Assembly (NCBI GenBank): GCA_030746455.1
Contig: JASLMQ010000571.1
Span: 1-5,300 of the forward strand
From: Candidatus Latescibacterota bacterium
GTDB lineage: Bacteria; Latescibacterota; UBA2968; GCA-2709665
Direction: 5' to 3'
Length of the DNA: 5,300 nucleotides
Positions 1 through 5,300 of the stretch are shown piece after piece. A program made the translations under genes and the position numbers. Every line of letters starts with the position of its first letter. Position 1 is the first letter of the stretch. The notes beneath the pieces are model-generated. The model had not been told where the DNA came from, ran no database searches, and saw only the letters and a list, made by a program, of their open reading frames with translations.

Positions 1-33
1 AGCCTCGATCCGACGAAATCGGGGGGTGCGAGT

Positions 34-81
34 GGCGCGAAGCGCCTGGGTACCCAGGTTCCGCCTCGGGCCCAGGCCTGG
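34..81. repeat. Cluster of CCTGG/CCAGG inverted repeats, REP-like intergenic element
   Basis: This non-coding stretch downstream of the operon holds overlapping inverted repeats. GGCGC/GCGCC around a GAA loop lies at 34-46. CCTGGGTACCCAGG, a perfect 14-base palindrome, lies at 45-58. GCCTGGG (44-50) can also pair with CCCAGGC (71-77), and CCAGGCCTGG (72-81) is a 10-base palindrome. The alternative pairings and the GCGGAACCTGGGTACCCAGG core on the minus strand resemble the mobile palindromic intergenic repeats common in planctomycete-like genomes. No T-run adjoins it, so it is not an obvious intrinsic terminator, though it might stabilise the 3' end of the operon mRNA. The rest of 1-193 shows no gene that I can support. 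Confidence 0.5.
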
Positions 82-142
82 ATCCTTCATGCCTCCCTTT
101 GTGAGCCAACGCCCGGGCCTTCCTCCACCTGGATATGCCCTG

Positions 143-169
143 CTTTCGTGTCTTTCGTGTCTTTCGTGG
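143..169. repeat. Three tandem 9-bp units (CTTTCGTGT-type repeat)
   Basis: CTTTCGTGT at 143-151 and 152-160 is followed by the variant CTTTCGTGG at 161-169, ending 25 bases beyond the fusion-gene stop codon (TAA, 196-194). On the minus strand it reads CCACGAAAG followed by ACACGAAAG twice. From general knowledge, this sequence recurs between genes in many environmental bacterial genomes and is often mis-translated as KDTKDTK or SFVSFVV peptides. Its function is unknown. I see no spacers or longer units, so it is not a CRISPR. Confidence 0.75.
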
Positions 170-193
170 TGACCGGGTTCTGTCGAATCAAGG

Positions 194-1309
194 TTAGTTC
201 GCCCGAGCGACCGATGGTTCCAAGGCGTTCGCCTGCGTCCTGGTTGTCACCAGCCTCGCCGACACGAACAGGTCGGCCGCCGCCGGGCTGCACGCAATGG
301 GCGTGTCGTGCAGGATGGCCAGACGGGTGAGTGCCATCAGATCGACATCGCTGATCTTGGCAGTCGTCGGATCCGAGAAGAAGATCACAATGTCGATCGT
401 GTGGTCCGCGATCCGGGCGCCGATCTGCTGGTCGCCTCCGCGGGTTCCGCTCTGCAGGCGCTCGATGTCCAGCTCGGGGAACAACTCCTTCAGCATGGTG
501 CCCGTACCCCACGTGCACACCAGCTTGTGGCCAACCAGCTTGCTGAGGTGCCTCCCTACCCACGCGGCCAGCTGTGCCTTCCGACCGTTGTGCGCCACCA
601 GCGCGATGTGCTGCCTGCCCGGATGCGCCATCCGCGCCCGCTCCGCCATAGCCAGAATCGACCGAACCTGTTCGGTCACCCCGGGCGTTTCGGCAGGAAA
701 GCGATCCGAGAACGCGGCAGTTCCCACCGTGAATCCCGCGGCCCCGGCCTCGGCAATGGCATGCACGCGCTCTTCCCTGTCGATGCTCCCTGCCATGATC
801 ACCGGTCCCCTCGAGGCCTCACAAACGGCGTCCATCAGACGGGGCGCGTCACCGGTATACCGATAGGCGAGCAGGTCCAGCCCGTAAACGCAAGGGGTCT
901 CGGTCAAACGGCGTGCGGAATCGCAAATCTCGTCGATGCTGCCCTCCAGTACGCTAGGGTGTCCGACGATACGCCCGGGAAACGGGTAGTAGAGCACCGG
1001 GGAAGGCGCGATGATGGGCACGACCTCTTCCGCCCGGGTGCCTCCCAGCAGACAGTCCACATTGAGCTCGACCGCCGCACGCGCGGACTCGATCTCGCTT
1101 TCTTCATCCAGGCTGACCACCTCCAAATAGCTTCTGGCGCCCGCGGACCGGATGTCATCGGCCAGCCCCTTCAGCTCGTCGAATGGTAGCCCCACGTCCT
1201 TGAAGCCGATGTGCTGGCAGCCGCCGGCCACCACCTCGTGGAGTCGCTCGCGAGCGTTGGGGATCGTCTGGTCATTCTCCGTCATCATGAAGATGAAATC
1301 GAAGCCCAT
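194..1309 (-). CDS. Fusion of a phosphate-binding TIM barrel and a methylglyoxal-synthase (MGS) domain
   Basis: A 371-residue cytoplasmic protein with two domains. Residues 1-205 show eight beta-strands of a TIM barrel: FDFIFMM (3-9), HIGFKDVG (33-40), SYLEVV (60-65), VDCLLGG (84-90), VLYYPFPG (105-112), VYGLDLLAY (141-149), VIMAGS (170-175) and GFTVGTAAF (192-200). The last two form a phosphate-binding end like that of HisA/ribulose-phosphate-type barrels. Lys37, Glu63 and Asp145 sit at strand ends as candidate active-site residues; the barrel's reaction is unknown. Residues 232-352 match methylglyoxal synthase, which turns dihydroxyacetone phosphate into methylglyoxal and phosphate: VAHNGRK (238-244), SGTRGGDQQIGA (287-298, with Asp293 equal to E. 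coli MgsA Asp71) and FFSDP (310-314). Asp321 and Asp323 match Asp99 and Asp101. E. coli Asp20 is Asn241 here and His98 is Ser320, so synthase activity is uncertain. ATG at 1309 has GGGAGG eight bases upstream; the stop is TAA. It is the last gene of the operon, 111 bases after the glycosidase. Confidence 0.9.
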   Translation of the reverse strand: MGFDFIFMMTENDQTIPNARERLHEVVAGGCQHIGFKDVGLPFDELKGLADDIRSAGARSYLEVVSLDEESEIESARAAVELNVDCLLGGTRAEEVVPIIAPSPVLYYPFPGRIVGHPSVLEGSIDEICDSARRLTETPCVYGLDLLAYRYTGDAPRLMDAVCEASRGPVIMAGSIDREERVHAIAEAGAAGFTVGTAAFSDRFPAETPGVTEQVRSILAMAERARMAHPGRQHIALVAHNGRKAQLAAWVGRHLSKLVGHKLVCTWGTGTMLKELFPELDIERLQSGTRGGDQQIGARIADHTIDIVIFFSDPTTAKISDVDLMALTRLAILHDTPIACSPAAADLFVSARLVTTRTQANALEPSVARAN

Positions 1310-1317
1310 ATCTCCGA

Positions 1318-1323
1318 CCTCCC
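1318..1323 (-). promoter_or_regulatory. Ribosome-binding site of the TIM-barrel/MGS gene
   Basis: GGGAGG on the minus strand, eight bases before the ATG at 1309. A second GGAG lies only two bases from the ATG, too close to act. This fixes the start so that the first barrel strand (FDFIFMM) immediately follows the initiator. Confidence 0.7.
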
Positions 1324-1364
1324 GCTACGGAATTGGGGTCATCCAGGTTCTGCCACGTAGGATA

Positions 1365-1381
1365 GCGCCGCGGGTCGGCGC
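1365..1381 (-). other. Small GC-rich hairpin in the gap before the last gene
   Basis: GCGCCG and CGGCGC form a perfect six-base-pair stem around a five-base loop, in the middle of the 111-base non-coding gap between the glycosidase stop (1421) and the fusion-gene start (1309). No T-run follows on the minus strand, so it is not a standard intrinsic terminator. It could be an mRNA processing or stability element, or chance in GC-rich DNA. Confidence 0.3.
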
Positions 1382-1420
1382 ACACAACCGGTACGGGACC
1401 CGCGCCCGAATAGCTGGCGG

Positions 1421-3274
1421 CTACTGGCGAGAGATGGTCAGCTCTCGCACGCCGTCGATCGCGGCGTCGACCTTGGCGTAGGATGACGTCTCGATCGTTT
1501 CCCTCTGGCAGCGTATCGGCTCCCCATCGAGCGCGACCTTGATGCGTCCCTTCCACCTGGGCAGCAGGACCCGGAAGGATGCCCGCTCGCCCGTGCCCGT
1601 GAAGGAAATGGTGATCCGCTTCGGGCGCAGCTGGTAGCTGTATGCGAAATAGGTGTTCGAAGCAGGGAAGTGGGCGACGGCTCTGGCCTCCTTGACCTTC
1701 GCCACCGGCCACCTGGGGCAGCACGCGACATGCTCGAAGCGCTTGCCCTGGGAGGAGATGCCCGCCAGCTCCTCCACCACCGCCTGGGTCCACGGAGTCA
1801 TCCCCCATGGGTCGTAGTTGGTCTGATGGTGGGGGGCGTTGATGGCTGCATTCCCATCCAGATCGTACCAGGTGAAGACCGCCCCGTTGTCGCGCTTGAT
1901 CACCGAGTGGAAGCCGCACAGCAGGTCATACCCGAGCTTCTCCATTCCATGCTGGAACGCGCCCCGGCACAGCTCGCCGCCCACCCACGGGAAGAGCCCG
2001 CCGTTGCAGTATTCGCCCTGCGCCTTCGACCACGGTCCCCCGATCTCGAAGTATCCCAGCTCGTCCGGGTACCCCGGCTGCAGACTCCACCACGGGAAGC
2101 GATCTCCCGTCTTCTTCCAGCGGCGAACGTACTCGCTGAGGATAGACACCGCCTTGTCGTGGTCCGCGAATCCCCGCGTGATCGCCCACGAGTTACTCAT
2201 GGCGAGCTGATCGTCCTCATCGAAATCCCCGTGGTCCACGGGATCGAGGTGGATGTGATGTTTGTACTTGACCCCATCCCAGAAGAAATGATTGCCTCTT
2301 GAGTAGTAGTGTTCCTGGCGCTGGCGCCAGTAGGCCGCGCGGTCCTCCTGTCCCAGGGCGGAGTAGAGCTCCGCGAGCAGGCGACTCGCCTGGAAAATGG
2401 AGGAGGTGTCACCCTGCGTGAGAACGAAGCGGCTCTCCTCGTTAATGAAGGTGCTGTCGAGCTTATCGACTGGGAACTGGATGTCCCACTCGTCCAACGT
2501 GTGCGGGCGCTTGATCAGCATGTGCTCGTTGTCGTACATATCGGGATCGGTCGTCACCCACGCCAGGGCCGCCTCCACGCGGGGCAGCCACTCCCGGATC
2601 CATTCGTCGTCGCCGTGCGCCGTCCACGCCTTGCAGAACATCGCGGCCGACGCGGTCTCCAGGTCCGCCATTACCGTCCGGATCTTCCGCTGCCCGTTCC
2701 ACTGGGGGTTCGCGTCGGTGTAGATGTGGTCCGGCAGTTTTCCATCGGACCACTGCTGGCTGTACAGACCCTCGAACATGCTCTTCACGTCACGAATGAA
2801 ATAGCGCATCGCCGCAACCGCGAACGGTGGGAATGCGAAATTCTCACGGCTGTTGTCCGCGTGTTTATAGTAGGTGACCCGCCTGCCGTCGATATTCGCC
2901 ACGTCGATCGACTGCCTCAGGCCCTCCTCGAGAAGCTCGAGCGTCTCGTCGGCCACCGGATTGTCGGTGGATACGCTCGTCCTGGCCTCGACCCGGAAGC
3001 TCCCGCACCGATTGTAGCTCTCCTTCCCGGGCAGCGAGGTCCAGGCCTTGATGTGATGGATGCCCGCACATCCTCCCGGCCGGACCACGATCTCGGCCTC
3101 TCCCTTCCCGGACTTCACCACCTCGGTCAGGTACTGTTGATGGTCCCCGTCCGTGATCTCGAAGCGGACGTCCTGCCCGCTCAATCCGTTGAGCCTCAGG
3201 ACGATCCTCACGTCCTCCAGGGGGGCACAGATTCTGGGATGGGTCCACACAACACCTGCATCGTCAAGTCTCAT
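1421..3274 (-). CDS. Six-hairpin (alpha/alpha)6-barrel glycoside hydrolase-like protein
   Basis: A 617-residue protein with no signal peptide (it starts MRLDDAGVVW), so probably cytoplasmic. It reads as three parts: a beta-rich N-terminal domain (about 1-98), a helical region (about 105-515) with alternating helices and aromatic loops, and a beta-rich C-terminal domain (about 535-617). The block YCNGGLFPWVGGE (422-434) resembles the NG-x-x-W-P motif near the active site of six-hairpin glycosidases, such as amylo-1,6-glucosidase-like, trehalase-like and GH78-like proteins. Acidic, aromatic-rich stretches likely to line the pocket are DEWD (261-264), NEES (278-281), QGDTSS (287-292), FDEDDQLAMSNSW (351-363) and WWSLQPGYPDELGYFE (395-410). 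I cannot assign a CAZy family or a substrate, nor name the catalytic pair with certainty. ATG at 3274 has AGGAGG 11 bases upstream. The stop is TAG. Its place between a UroD-like gene and a sugar-phosphate-type enzyme suggests intracellular cleavage of an imported glycoside. Confidence 0.85.
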   Translation of the reverse strand: MRLDDAGVVWTHPRICAPLEDVRIVLRLNGLSGQDVRFEITDGDHQQYLTEVVKSGKGEAEIVVRPGGCAGIHHIKAWTSLPGKESYNRCGSFRVEARTSVSTDNPVADETLELLEEGLRQSIDVANIDGRRVTYYKHADNSRENFAFPPFAVAAMRYFIRDVKSMFEGLYSQQWSDGKLPDHIYTDANPQWNGQRKIRTVMADLETASAAMFCKAWTAHGDDEWIREWLPRVEAALAWVTTDPDMYDNEHMLIKRPHTLDEWDIQFPVDKLDSTFINEESRFVLTQGDTSSIFQASRLLAELYSALGQEDRAAYWRQRQEHYYSRGNHFFWDGVKYKHHIHLDPVDHGDFDEDDQLAMSNSWAITRGFADHDKAVSILSEYVRRWKKTGDRFPWWSLQPGYPDELGYFEIGGPWSKAQGEYCNGGLFPWVGGELCRGAFQHGMEKLGYDLLCGFHSVIKRDNGAVFTWYDLDGNAAINAPHHQTNYDPWGMTPWTQAVVEELAGISSQGKRFEHVACCPRWPVAKVKEARAVAHFPASNTYFAYSYQLRPKRITISFTGTGERASFRVLLPRWKGRIKVALDGEPIRCQRETIETSSYAKVDAAIDGVRELTISRQ

Positions 3275-3285
3275 GGTCTTCGATC

Positions 3286-3291
3286 CCTCCT
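3286..3291 (-). promoter_or_regulatory. Ribosome-binding site of the glycosidase-like gene
   Basis: A perfect AGGAGG on the minus strand, 11 bases before the ATG at 3274. The match is the strongest of the operon although the spacing is slightly long. It lies in the 63-base gap after the UroD-like gene. Confidence 0.75.
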
Positions 3292-3337
3292 ATCCGGTCT
3301 TCGTGTCCATCGGTTCCCGCGTGTGTCTACTCCCGCT

Positions 3338-4306
3338 TCATTCCTGGGCTCGCCGTCGCACGTGCGCTGCGGAGATCGCCGTCCGGATCCGGCGCCAGTC
3401 GATATCGCTCGGTAGCGTGCAGTCGGCTCCAAGGATGAACCGATCGGGTGCGTCATCCATGGCAGCCGCGACGGCCTCTTCGATCTCAACCGGGCTCCCC
3501 GAAACCAGGGCCCCCTTCCGATCCATGCCACCCATGAATGGCCTGCCGAACAAACGCGAAAGCTCCTTCGCCGAGACCCGCTCGTCGCCCAGCTCCAGGC
3601 TGCAGTTCACGATATGTCCTGGATAGTCCAGGAACGGAGTCAGGTCGCCGTACCCGGCGTGGAAATCGCACACGTGGAGGATGTTAAACGCACAGGCGCG
3701 GTTCATTTCCTCCATAAGGACCAGATCGAACGGCTTGATGCACGTATCGAAGAGCGCCGGATCCGCGAATCGACCGCTCTCCCCACCCTGCGTGGATGCG
3801 TAGAAGCCATCGATGCCGAGGTCGATGCACCCCTTCACGAATAGCATCAGGCTTTCGGCGATGGTCTCGATCCCCTTCTTCACCTTCGCCGGGTCTTCGT
3901 GGATCTGCCTGGTGATCACCTCGTGGCCGACCGTCTGCTCGTGACGCACGGTCTGCCCCGCGCACATAAAGGGCGAATACAGGGTCATGATCACCAGTGC
4001 TTCCTGCTTCGCCGCTCGAACGAGATCCTCCACGACCTTCAGGGGAGCTTCGTAGAAGTCGGCGCCATACAGCGGCATCTTGTCCCAGTCACGAGCGCGC
4101 TCGATCTCCGACCTCACGGGAAAGGGATGCTCGAACTGGATCTTCACGAAATCCATTCCCGTGTACCTGAAGAACTCGAGGTGCTTGTCGATTGCCGCCT
4201 GACCCCGGTGGTACTCCGGATCGAAGTGGATAAAGAACCCGGCCGGAGTGCCGTCCTGCGTCCCACCGTCGTCAAGAATGCTCAGGACTCTGTCTCTCTT
4301 ATTCAC
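3338..4306 (-). CDS. Uroporphyrinogen decarboxylase-superfamily (UroD/MtaA-like) protein
   Basis: A 322-residue cytoplasmic TIM-barrel protein of the UroD / cobalamin-methyltransferase superfamily. It opens with VNKRDRVLSIL, the typical N-terminus of the non-HemE branch, and lacks the RQAGR motif of true HemE. It keeps the pattern that binds zinc in MtaA/MtbA-type methyltransferases: His211-x-Cys213 (ILHVCDFH) and Cys296 (GADCTLPSD). The DxLF/GGMD block at 248-262 (SRLFGRPFMGGMDRKG) and the glycine-rich end before Cys296 also fit the family. In studied relatives the zinc activates a thiol that accepts a methyl group from a corrinoid protein; the substrate here is unknown. The start is GTG at 4306, set by GGGGGA eight bases upstream. 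The open frame continues much further upstream, but that part overlaps the transporter gene and is not coding. The gene lies 26 bases after the transporter and 63 before the glycosidase-like gene. No corrinoid-protein gene is in the window, so a non-methyltransferase role remains possible. Confidence 0.9.
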   Translation of the reverse strand: MNKRDRVLSILDDGGTQDGTPAGFFIHFDPEYHRGQAAIDKHLEFFRYTGMDFVKIQFEHPFPVRSEIERARDWDKMPLYGADFYEAPLKVVEDLVRAAKQEALVIMTLYSPFMCAGQTVRHEQTVGHEVITRQIHEDPAKVKKGIETIAESLMLFVKGCIDLGIDGFYASTQGGESGRFADPALFDTCIKPFDLVLMEEMNRACAFNILHVCDFHAGYGDLTPFLDYPGHIVNCSLELGDERVSAKELSRLFGRPFMGGMDRKGALVSGSPVEIEEAVAAAMDDAPDRFILGADCTLPSDIDWRRIRTAISAAHVRRRAQE

Positions 4307-4314
4307 GCCGCGAA

Positions 4315-4320
4315 TCCCCC
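4315..4320 (-). promoter_or_regulatory. Ribosome-binding site of the UroD-like gene
   Basis: GGGGGA on the minus strand, eight bases before the GTG codon at 4306. It lies in the 26-base gap after the transporter stop codon and decides the start against the in-frame upstream codons, which would run into the transporter gene. Confidence 0.6.
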
Positions 4321-4332
4321 AACGCTGCAAGC

Positions 4333-5280
4333 CTACGCTGCCGAGACAGCCTCCTCGCGTCCCCGTCTTCCACCCAGCGCCCCGAGCATCGATCCCGCAA
4401 CCACCATAGCTACGCCGACCCATCCGAGCACAGTCAGTCCTTCCGGACTCAGCAGATCGGGAAAGATCCTGGCCAAAAGGGCGGCGTTTCCCATGGTCAT
4501 CAGCGGCGTAAGCGCAACCACCACGCCCGTCCTTGACGCCTCGAGGTGGTTCATCGCCGTACCGAAGCACACGTAGGACGTCACCGTCATCACCGAGGCC
4601 AGCCCCAGCAGACCCAGCTGCGTTCGATTCAGATCCGCCAGACAGGATGGCTGGCCCAGCGGAAACATCAGCACCACGCCGGCTGCGTAAACGAACAGCA
4701 GCACCGCTTCCGGCGGCAGGTAGGCCTGGAGCTGCTTTTGTGACAGGATGTATGCCGCCCATAGAACGGCGGACAGAACCAGCAGGAGCACACCCCCCGT
4801 GTACGCGTCCAGGCCCGTCAGAAGCCCATCGTACCGATGGTGAAGGAACAACCCGATCCCGAAAACCAGCAGGCCGAGCCCCAGCCATTGGGTCCGGGTG
4901 AACGTCTCTCGGAAGATCACCAACCCGCCAAGAAGCACGAGCATGGGGGTCATCTGCATGACCACTTGCGCTGCCCCGGGTGAGACAAATCGCAGGCTTG
5001 TCAGATACGTCACGTAATTTCCGCACAGGCCGCCGATGCAGACCAGCATCAGCAGCGGCGCCCGCCGGACATCGCCCAGGACACGCCAGCCATACCGGCG
5101 AACCAGAATGGGAGTCAGAAGCGCACCTGCCAGCAGGAAGCGGGTCCACGCCAGGGTGTAGACATCCACCCATTGCACCAGAATCTTCAGCACCACCGGG
5201 AGTGCGCCCCAGATCAGCGCCGTAGAGAGCGCCAGAAGGAGTCCCAGCGTTCGCCGCCCGGATGGCGTGTGTCGATTCAC
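4333..5280 (-). CDS. EamA/DMT-superfamily membrane transporter
   Basis: A 315-residue inner-membrane protein, first gene of the visible operon. It has about ten hydrophobic segments (roughly residues 11-31, 40-60, 74-93, 101-122, 130-147, 160-180, 190-208, 221-240, 250-270 and 281-303) in two homologous halves, the classic 5+5 layout of the drug/metabolite transporter superfamily. Each half carries the expected Thr-Pro in its fourth helix (TPMLVLL at 111-117, followed by FRE at 123-125; TPLMTM at 258-263). The length matches the usual 280-320, and the C-terminus is short, charged and probably cytoplasmic (GRRGREE). The start is GTG at 5280, chosen because GGAG lies five bases upstream. The stop is TAG, 26 bases before the UroD-like gene. 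EamA proteins carry many small metabolites in either direction, so the substrate cannot be read from sequence. The neighbours suggest a sugar-derived compound, which is inference. Confidence 0.93.
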   Translation of the reverse strand: MNRHTPSGRRTLGLLLALSTALIWGALPVVLKILVQWVDVYTLAWTRFLLAGALLTPILVRRYGWRVLGDVRRAPLLMLVCIGGLCGNYVTYLTSLRFVSPGAAQVVMQMTPMLVLLGGLVIFRETFTRTQWLGLGLLVFGIGLFLHHRYDGLLTGLDAYTGGVLLLVLSAVLWAAYILSQKQLQAYLPPEAVLLFVYAAGVVLMFPLGQPSCLADLNRTQLGLLGLASVMTVTSYVCFGTAMNHLEASRTGVVVALTPLMTMGNAALLARIFPDLLSPEGLTVLGWVGVAMVVAGSMLGALGGRRGREEAVSAA

Positions 5281-5284
5281 CCGA

Positions 5285-5289
5285 TCTCC
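5285..5289 (-). promoter_or_regulatory. Ribosome-binding site of the transporter gene
   Basis: On the minus strand GGAGA precedes the GTG start at 5280, with five bases between GGAG and the GTG. It supports GTG as the start. A nearby ATG at 5291 opens a frame that stops after four codons, so it cannot be the start. Confidence 0.7.
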
Positions 5290-5300
5290 ATTGCGGCTCA

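Follow-up and report, generated by a model that had tools for sequence, protein, structure and literature searches.

A barrel of an unnamed family fused to a methylglyoxal-synthase domain recurs in many bacteria and may act on three-carbon keto phosphates

Introduction

Why would a methylglyoxal synthase (MGS), which in the solved enzymes is a stand-alone chain of 126-178 residues, sit behind a triose-phosphate-isomerase (TIM) barrel in one protein? The question is raised by a gene in 5,300 nucleotides of DNA from a Candidatus Latescibacterota bacterium (assembly GCA_030746455.1, contig JASLMQ010000571.1, positions 1 to 5,300); this whole stretch is called the window below. An earlier note on this DNA, made from the sequence alone, described a complete barrel with a HisA-like phosphate-binding end fused to an MGS domain, suggested linked chemistry on a triose phosphate or a phosphate-sensing role for the MGS domain, and knew of no pathway built on such a fusion; this interpretation was partly supported. 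The barrel-MGS fusion was confirmed as a real family recurring in many bacteria. We tentatively propose, with somewhat less than even confidence, that it is a bifunctional enzyme of three-carbon keto-phosphate metabolism: the barrel would act on the product of a PdxA-type dehydrogenase and the MGS domain would expel the phosphate, the substrate being inferred from gene context.

Results

Reality and distribution of the fusion

The AlphaFold2 model of the 371-aa protein (mean predicted local distance difference test, pLDDT, 93.4) placed the barrel strands at residues 4-195, a helix at 211-228 and the MGS fold thereafter; the barrel modelled alone reached a pLDDT of 96.2 and a predicted template modelling score (pTM) of 0.92. 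An eight-strand barrel, one joining helix and an MGS domain are thus confidently predicted in a single chain. A homologue search with the fusion gave 3243 matches overall, and the 120 proteins listed, the window's own among them, all carried PF02142 and were 349-388 aa long. A scan of a genome collection with the barrel alignment gave 529 loci, of which the best 80 were fetched: 77 were fusions and three were lone barrels. The frame was unbroken in 76 of the 77 fusion loci, which come from separate genome records, and split by a frameshift in one (L005); assembly error was rejected on this count. Model, profiles and loci therefore bear out the single-frame fusion described earlier, which was not confined to one contig. 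Searching domain by domain, proteins carrying both parts recurred and lone barrels were also found. Searches of the open-licence literature turned up no account of either the fusion or the barrel, in agreement with the earlier statement about pathways.

The window protein clustered with Latescibacterota-type sequences (80-86% identity) in the homologue search and in the tree. The distribution of the fusion is patchy, since it was carried by only 2 of 64 Latescibacterota genomes, by one (the centre genome) of 289 alphaproteobacterial genomes sampled at class level, and by 17 of 295 genomes sampled at family level around a Mameliella genome. The alphaproteobacterial sample also held a barrel without MGS in 22 genomes and a separate MGS in 13, and the Mameliella sample in 4 and 19, respectively (the latter sample counted by hand from tables, excluding matches weaker than about 1e-18).

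The MGS domain

Residues 232-360 of the window protein matched PRK05234 (133 bits, cut-off 84) and PF02142 (43.8 bits, cut-off 24.1), and eleven solved MGS sequences matched the window with E values from 2.3e-29 to 1.2e-17; the domain scored below the TIGR00160 equivalog cut-off (102.6 vs. 146.9 bits). In the available part of PMC7843640, Asp71 is described as the catalytic base, and His19 and a non-critical His98 are also named; Lys23, Ser65 and Thr45-Gly49 surround the phosphate, and Gly66-Pro67 lie over C1 and C2. These positions (E. coli MgsA numbering) were counted in 194 fusions, namely 120 listed proteins plus 74 loci, comprising 185 different sequences. H19, K23, T45, T48 and G66 were each retained in all 194, and D71, D91 and D101 each in 193, so that the fusion resembles MgsA in fold, GGDQQ motif and most catalytic residues (Asp71, His19, Lys23, Thr45, Thr48, Asp91 and Asp101). 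The window has the Asp71 and His19 equivalents.

The barrel domain

The barrel of the window scored below every Pfam and NCBIfam cut-off, including those of the HisA profiles (PF00977, 13.9 vs. 23.6 bits; TIGR00007, 16.3 vs. 228.95 bits) and of archaeal class I fructose-bisphosphate aldolase (13.8 vs. 430 bits). HisA was therefore rejected as its family, and the HisA-like end proposed earlier stands only in that the phosphate-binding half is distantly related. Such distant kinship with the HisA family is likely because P0215, alone among 10 lone barrels scanned, passed a family cut-off (PF00977, His_biosynth, 30.1 bits) and P0097 has a precomputed PF00977 annotation. The profile of the barrel family reached PriA/HisA at 6e-9 through two weak stretches, and the commonest weak family matches of barrels were NMO, HisA, ADH synthase, GGGP synthase and TrpA.

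The barrel fold and its C-terminal phosphate-binding half are common to HisA/PriA, PcrB, TrpA, KDPG aldolase, ribulose-phosphate epimerase, OMP decarboxylase and PdxJ. Structural alignments with such phosphate barrels gave 10-20% identity, and the barrel has a residue set of its own (K37, D38, E63, D145 and R150). The best structural neighbours have many functions and none singles out an aldolase or an isomerase. The 3-hexulose-6-phosphate synthase/6-phospho-3-hexuloisomerase fusion (9lj9) shares 14% identity and has a hexuloisomerase, in place of an MGS, as its second activity. K37, E63, D145 and R150 were kept in 135 of 135 clade A sequences, 14 of 14 clade B sequences and one staphylococcal sequence, and D38 in 134 of 135, 14 of 14 and the same staphylococcal sequence. 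Because charged residues at the strand ends are conserved family-wide, the barrel looks like an enzyme rather than a scaffold.

A barrel-only query, with a length limit excluding most fusions, gave 4928 protein matches at E <= 1e-3; among those listed, 98 of 120 were 220-250 aa long. Many named lone barrels (P0121-P0240; L081, L083, L084 and L153) are publicly called 4-hydroxythreonine-4-phosphate dehydrogenase, the name of PdxA. The PdxA family was absent from the listed Pfam and NCBIfam matches of 19 barrel sequences at E <= 0.01, and the true PdxA is a separate gene adjoining lone barrels on their upstream side. Gene context or fusion has probably propagated this name in error; in P0160 the C-terminal part of PdxA is fused in frame to the barrel. 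Another group (P0163, P0181, P0202, L082, L086, L131-L135, L137 and L152) carries a C-terminal cupin tail, confirmed as a domain in six loci, with PdxA upstream in most such loci.

Two plasmids held further relatives. One of Staphylococcus warneri (L085, positions 5992-6654) encodes a barrel of about 33% identity retaining K37, D38, E63, D145 and R150. One of Rhizobium (L087, positions 6001-6684) holds a frameshifted, decayed copy adjoining transposase-like fragments (judged by eye) and a D-threitol dehydrogenase/DhaK region.

Gene neighbourhoods of barrels not fused to MGS

Eighteen clade A loci with flanks were compared (L037, L045, L068, L081-L084, L086, L131-L135, L137 and L151-L154), not all of them independent: L151/L154 and L083/L153 are close pairs, L134/L135/L137 a triplet, and nine have a cupin tail. 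Fifteen barrel-type plasmid matches (H1-H15) were listed, of which 10 were fetched together with the staphylococcal H24; L085 and the decayed L087 were left out of the eighteen. PdxA lay directly upstream of the barrel in 16 of the 18 loci (exceptions L131 and L133), and a DUF1537 kinase belonged to the run in 11. The order in annotated records was LysR, four-carbon acid sugar kinase, PdxA, barrel, or else PdxA, barrel and cupin, each a gene of its own; the Gluconobacter locus (L084) has its cupin in a gene next to that of the barrel. The lone barrel is thus the third gene of LysR-DUF1537-PdxA runs, which resemble the PdxA2/DUF1537 operons of four-carbon sugar-acid catabolism and 4-hydroxythreonine phosphorylation; the available parts of three accounts of these systems (PMC9997740, PMC7954711, PMC12540250) do not mention such a barrel. 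Five loci of rhizobial type (L082, L083, L086, L152 and L153) had genes for LtaE, DSD1/alanine-racemase-like proteins, RidA or FAD oxidases close to the barrel, and LtaE, DSD1 and RidA were absent from the remaining 13.

The 14 loci of the distant clade B had other neighbours by family scan. The neighbour in L147 is related to glycerol-1-phosphate dehydrogenase (173 bits to PRK00843, below cut-off) and shares the Fe-ADH_2 domain with neighbours in L146, L148 and L149; L146 also has an FGGY kinase. The neighbour in L139 is related to glycerol-3-phosphate oxidase (195 bits, below cut-off) and shares DAO and BFD domains with that in L136, while L140 has a class II aldolase and L145 an RraA-like protein; the remaining loci had no such neighbours. 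The runs of L136, L139 and L146-L149 also include HAD or inositol-phosphatase-like phosphatases, and possibly represent uncharacterised polyol-phosphate pathways.

None of 34 loci whose barrel is not fused to MGS had a separate MGS gene in the flanks (three fusions in the set served as positive control). The refuting outcome named earlier, that homologues consistently have the two parts as separate, unlinked genes, did not occur as stated: lone barrels do exist, but the only physical connection observed between barrel and MGS was the fusion itself.

Gene neighbourhoods, genomes and evolution of the fusions

Three of the 77 fusions lie directly after PdxA (L038, L072 and L079) and 22 directly after a PdxY/PdxK-like (pyridoxal-kinase-like) gene; the kinase of L050, 788 nt off, was not scored as adjacent, and four fusion loci have less than 1.2 kb of upstream sequence. 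A separate MGS was not found in 17 of 21 fusion genomes, several of which are incomplete metagenome-assembled genomes (MAGs). Longer MGS-domain proteins, presumably CarB and PurH judging by their length, also match PF02142. In the small set that includes the 21 fusion genomes, 3 of 3 lone-barrel genomes had a separate MGS vs. 4 of 21 fusion genomes (Fisher p 0.017), a contrast based on genomes too few and too related to rely on.

On a tree of 105 of 149 selected rows, the fusion label required seven changes, three of them forced by well-supported branches. How many of these are true gains or losses is uncertain, because truncation or a frameshift may have made fusions look like "lone" rows, as in L005. 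Three lone barrels located after PdxA (L037, L045 and L068) fell within the fusion-rich part of the tree; outside it lay the lone barrels of rhizobia (P0174) and the barrels with a cupin tail, the latter arising by one change (support 90). Fused and unfused barrels can share the same slot after PdxA, which suggests that fusion leaves the job of the barrel unchanged. A fusion in a MAG labelled Verrucomicrobiales (L009) was placed among Hyphomicrobiales sequences, reflecting horizontal transfer or mis-binning.

Discussion

Proposed function

PdxA oxidises 4-phospho-hydroxythreonine to a beta-keto acid, which loses CO2 to give an aminoketone phosphate, and DUF1537 kinases, which act in acid-sugar catabolism, are able to phosphorylate 4-hydroxythreonine (available parts of PMC7954711 and PMC9997740); bacterial threonate catabolism ends in dihydroxyacetone phosphate (DHAP), according to the available part of PMC12540250. 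In the proposed scheme, a PdxA-type dehydrogenase would oxidise and decarboxylate its substrate to a three-carbon 2-oxo-propyl phosphate: either DHAP, if it starts with a 4-phosphorylated four-carbon sugar acid, or, if it starts with 4-phospho-hydroxythreonine, the 3-amino analogue of DHAP, 3-phosphohydroxy-1-aminoacetone. PdxA2 reportedly makes DHAP from 4-phospho-D-threonate (2016 work in PNAS). The barrel would take the 2-oxo-propyl phosphate and isomerise or otherwise prepare it at the enediol level, and the joined MGS domain would enolise it and beta-eliminate the phosphate, yielding methylglyoxal or its imine. As the barrel step would exist alone in organisms lacking the fusion, the MGS domain would be an added exit from the pathway. 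This is the simplest way to read the two activities together, since both PdxA products are 2-oxo-propyl phosphates and MGS acts on DHAP.

This proposal is favoured by the adjacency of unfused barrels to PdxA, the three fusions after PdxA, the PdxA-barrel protein P0160 and the conserved residues of both domains. The clade B neighbours (glycerol-1-phosphate dehydrogenase- and glycerol-3-phosphate oxidase-like proteins and the FGGY kinase) point to DHAP-related chemistry, and the 17 of 21 fusion genomes in which a separate MGS was not found agree with it.

Several observations weigh against it. In the fused MGS domain T47 was replaced by Gly in 187 of 194 fusions and S65 by Arg in 184 (Ser in 9), P67 was lost in all 194 (to S, T, A or G) and H98 was retained in only 22; D20 was Asn in 141. 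By contrast, 14 canonical MGS rows kept D20, T47, S65 and H98 in 13 and P67 in 14, and the sole row without H98 was the E. coli H98N mutant. The window, which keeps Ser65 and Gly66, has Asn20, Trp46, Gly47, Thr67 and Ser98, so the canonical phosphate and C1-C2 loop (TGTTG, Ser65, Gly66-Pro67) with His98 is not intact in it. These alignments suggest that MGS chemistry is conserved in a reshaped substrate pocket, and the altered phosphate/C1-C2 loop may have changed or abolished activity on DHAP. Gene context also disagrees in part: 74 of 77 fusions have no PdxA directly upstream, in which they differ from PdxA2/DUF1537 operons, and 52 have neither PdxA nor a pyridoxal-kinase-like gene there; PdxA was found in 0 of 14 clade B loci; and a search of the 154 fetched loci at E <= 0.1 (the window being the positive control) gave no relative of the window's glycosidase-like, URO-D and EamA proteins. 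Separate MGS and separate barrel co-occurred at chance in the 289 alphaproteobacterial genomes (1 observed, about 1.0 expected; at most 6 candidates scored per genome), and neither an assay of the barrel nor a structure of it with a ligand was found. That the barrel handles a triose-phosphate-like compound, as suggested earlier, fits the PdxA and glycerol-phosphate-dehydrogenase-like neighbourhoods, but plain DHAP as the MGS substrate is not supported, the loop being altered in nearly all fusions.

Alternative explanations

The fusion might be a plain DHAP bypass, in which an aldolase- or triose-phosphate-isomerase-like barrel feeds DHAP to an ordinary MGS and so relieves phosphate limitation or sugar-phosphate stress; in substance this was the first of the two views in the earlier note. 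It would suit the retained catalytic residues, the 17 of 21 fusion genomes in which no separate MGS was found and the glycosidase-like neighbour in the window, but is unlikely given that the phosphate and C1/C2 loop is systematically altered, that PdxA, not glycolytic genes, is the best conserved partner of the barrel, and that its structural neighbours spread across phosphate barrels with no specific aldolase or isomerase.

Somewhat less probable still is that the barrel is a new 3-phosphohydroxy-1-aminoacetone isomerase. It would move the carbonyl (reverse Amadori chemistry) to give glyceraldehyde-3-phosphate imine and hence glyceraldehyde-3-phosphate and ammonia; in the fused form, the MGS domain would instead eliminate phosphate from that enaminol, with methylglyoxal and ammonia as products. 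An amino substrate fits because of the LtaE, DSD1, RidA and FAD-oxidase genes in the five rhizobial-type loci and the remodelled MGS pocket, and if true such an isomerase would complete a degradation pathway for amino acids of the 4-hydroxythreonine type.

We regard as quite improbable a role in vitamin-B6 housekeeping, whereby the fusion would destroy or recycle 3-phosphohydroxy-1-aminoacetone in connection with PdxA and pyridoxal salvage. The 22 PdxY/PdxK-like neighbours argue for it, being the best pyridoxal-kinase match of the genome in the 7 of 7 such genomes examined, as do two genomes (G366 with L038, G367 with L072) whose sole PdxA match adjoins the fusion and the presence of PdxJ in 23 of 24 genomes searched. 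However, the adjacent kinases scored 106-138 bits, below the TIGR00687 cut-off of 144.5, and were seen only in alphaproteobacterial, mainly Rhodobacterales-like loci, where they may be one inherited arrangement; both G366 and G367 are MAGs and may be incomplete; PdxA was found only elsewhere in 17 of 21 fusion genomes and not at all in one; and DUF1537 kinases are assigned to acid-sugar catabolism (available part of PMC7954711).

In carbamoyl-phosphate synthase an MGS-like domain serves as an effector-binding regulator, and the C-terminal domain of the fusion could likewise bind a phosphate effector and control the barrel, as the earlier note had also considered. The non-canonical phosphate loop and the score below the TIGR00160 cut-off agree with this. 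A pure sensor need not keep His19, Asp71, Asp101 and GGDQQ, which are present in at least 190 of 194 fusions; because the catalytic core is kept, the sensor role is disfavoured and appears highly unlikely. A chance fusion of two independent activities held together by drift is equally hard to credit: separate barrel and MGS genes are not statistically associated across the genomes sampled and the tree permits several gains or losses of MGS (seven changes, at least three forced), but alphaproteobacterial, Latescibacterota and a few other loci have kept the two domains together, at about 60-86% identity and with the active-site residues of both preserved.

The locus in the window

The minus strand of the window holds four co-directional genes (Table 1): EamA, URO-D-like, glycosidase-like and fusion. 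The three genes 5' of the fusion (1421-5280) run co-directionally with gaps of 26-111 bases and possibly form an operon, with no counterpart among the fetched loci. The neighbour genes of the two loci closest to the window (L001 and L002) differ from those of the window, and no conserved operon around the fusion gene was found, its neighbours lacking relatives in the 154 fetched loci. The glycosidase-like gene belongs to a local gene run, not to a conserved module, and no DUF1537-PdxA2 operon was found in the window. Within the SGTRGGDQQ stretch Ser65 is retained and Pro67 is replaced by Thr.

Table 1. Features of the window, with positions on the 5,300-nucleotide stretch
Feature	Position	Strand	Evidence
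Barrel-MGS fusion open reading frame, 371 aa	194..1309	minus	Single open frame; Pfam/NCBIfam scans, homologue search, structure model
TIM-barrel domain, aa 1-209, unnamed family	683..1309	minus	Model; residues D13, K37, D38, E63, D145, R150 conserved at strand ends
Connecting helix and short linker, aa 210-231	617..682	minus	DSSP of model
MGS domain, aa 232-360	230..616	minus	NCBIfam PRK05234, 133 bits; best solved MGS, E 2.3e-29
SGTRGGDQQ, aa 287-295, contains equivalent of Asp71 (catalytic base) of E. coli MgsA	425..451	minus	
CTWGTG, aa 265-270, changed version of TGTTG phosphate-binding motif	500..517	minus	
Weak six-hairpin-glycosidase-like gene, upstream, co-directional	1421..3274	minus	22.5 bits vs. 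cut-off 27
URO-D/corrinoid-methyltransferase-like gene, upstream, co-directional	3338..4306	minus	57.9 bits vs. cut-off 23.9
EamA transporter gene, upstream, co-directional	4333..5280	minus	111 bits vs. cut-off 28.2

Significance

The barrel family, uncharacterised and misnamed, is the more interesting half of the fusion: a large family that often has a public name not borne out by profile scores, and which nevertheless has a clearly defined place in operons, behind PdxA. The fusion itself hints at its function: whichever compound the barrel forms or consumes, elimination of the MGS type can come next. Solving that function would complete the DUF1537-PdxA pathways and correct many annotations. 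Methylglyoxal chemistry is usually regarded as a toxic bypass, and the function of the barrel could reveal a dedicated rather than an overflow use of it.
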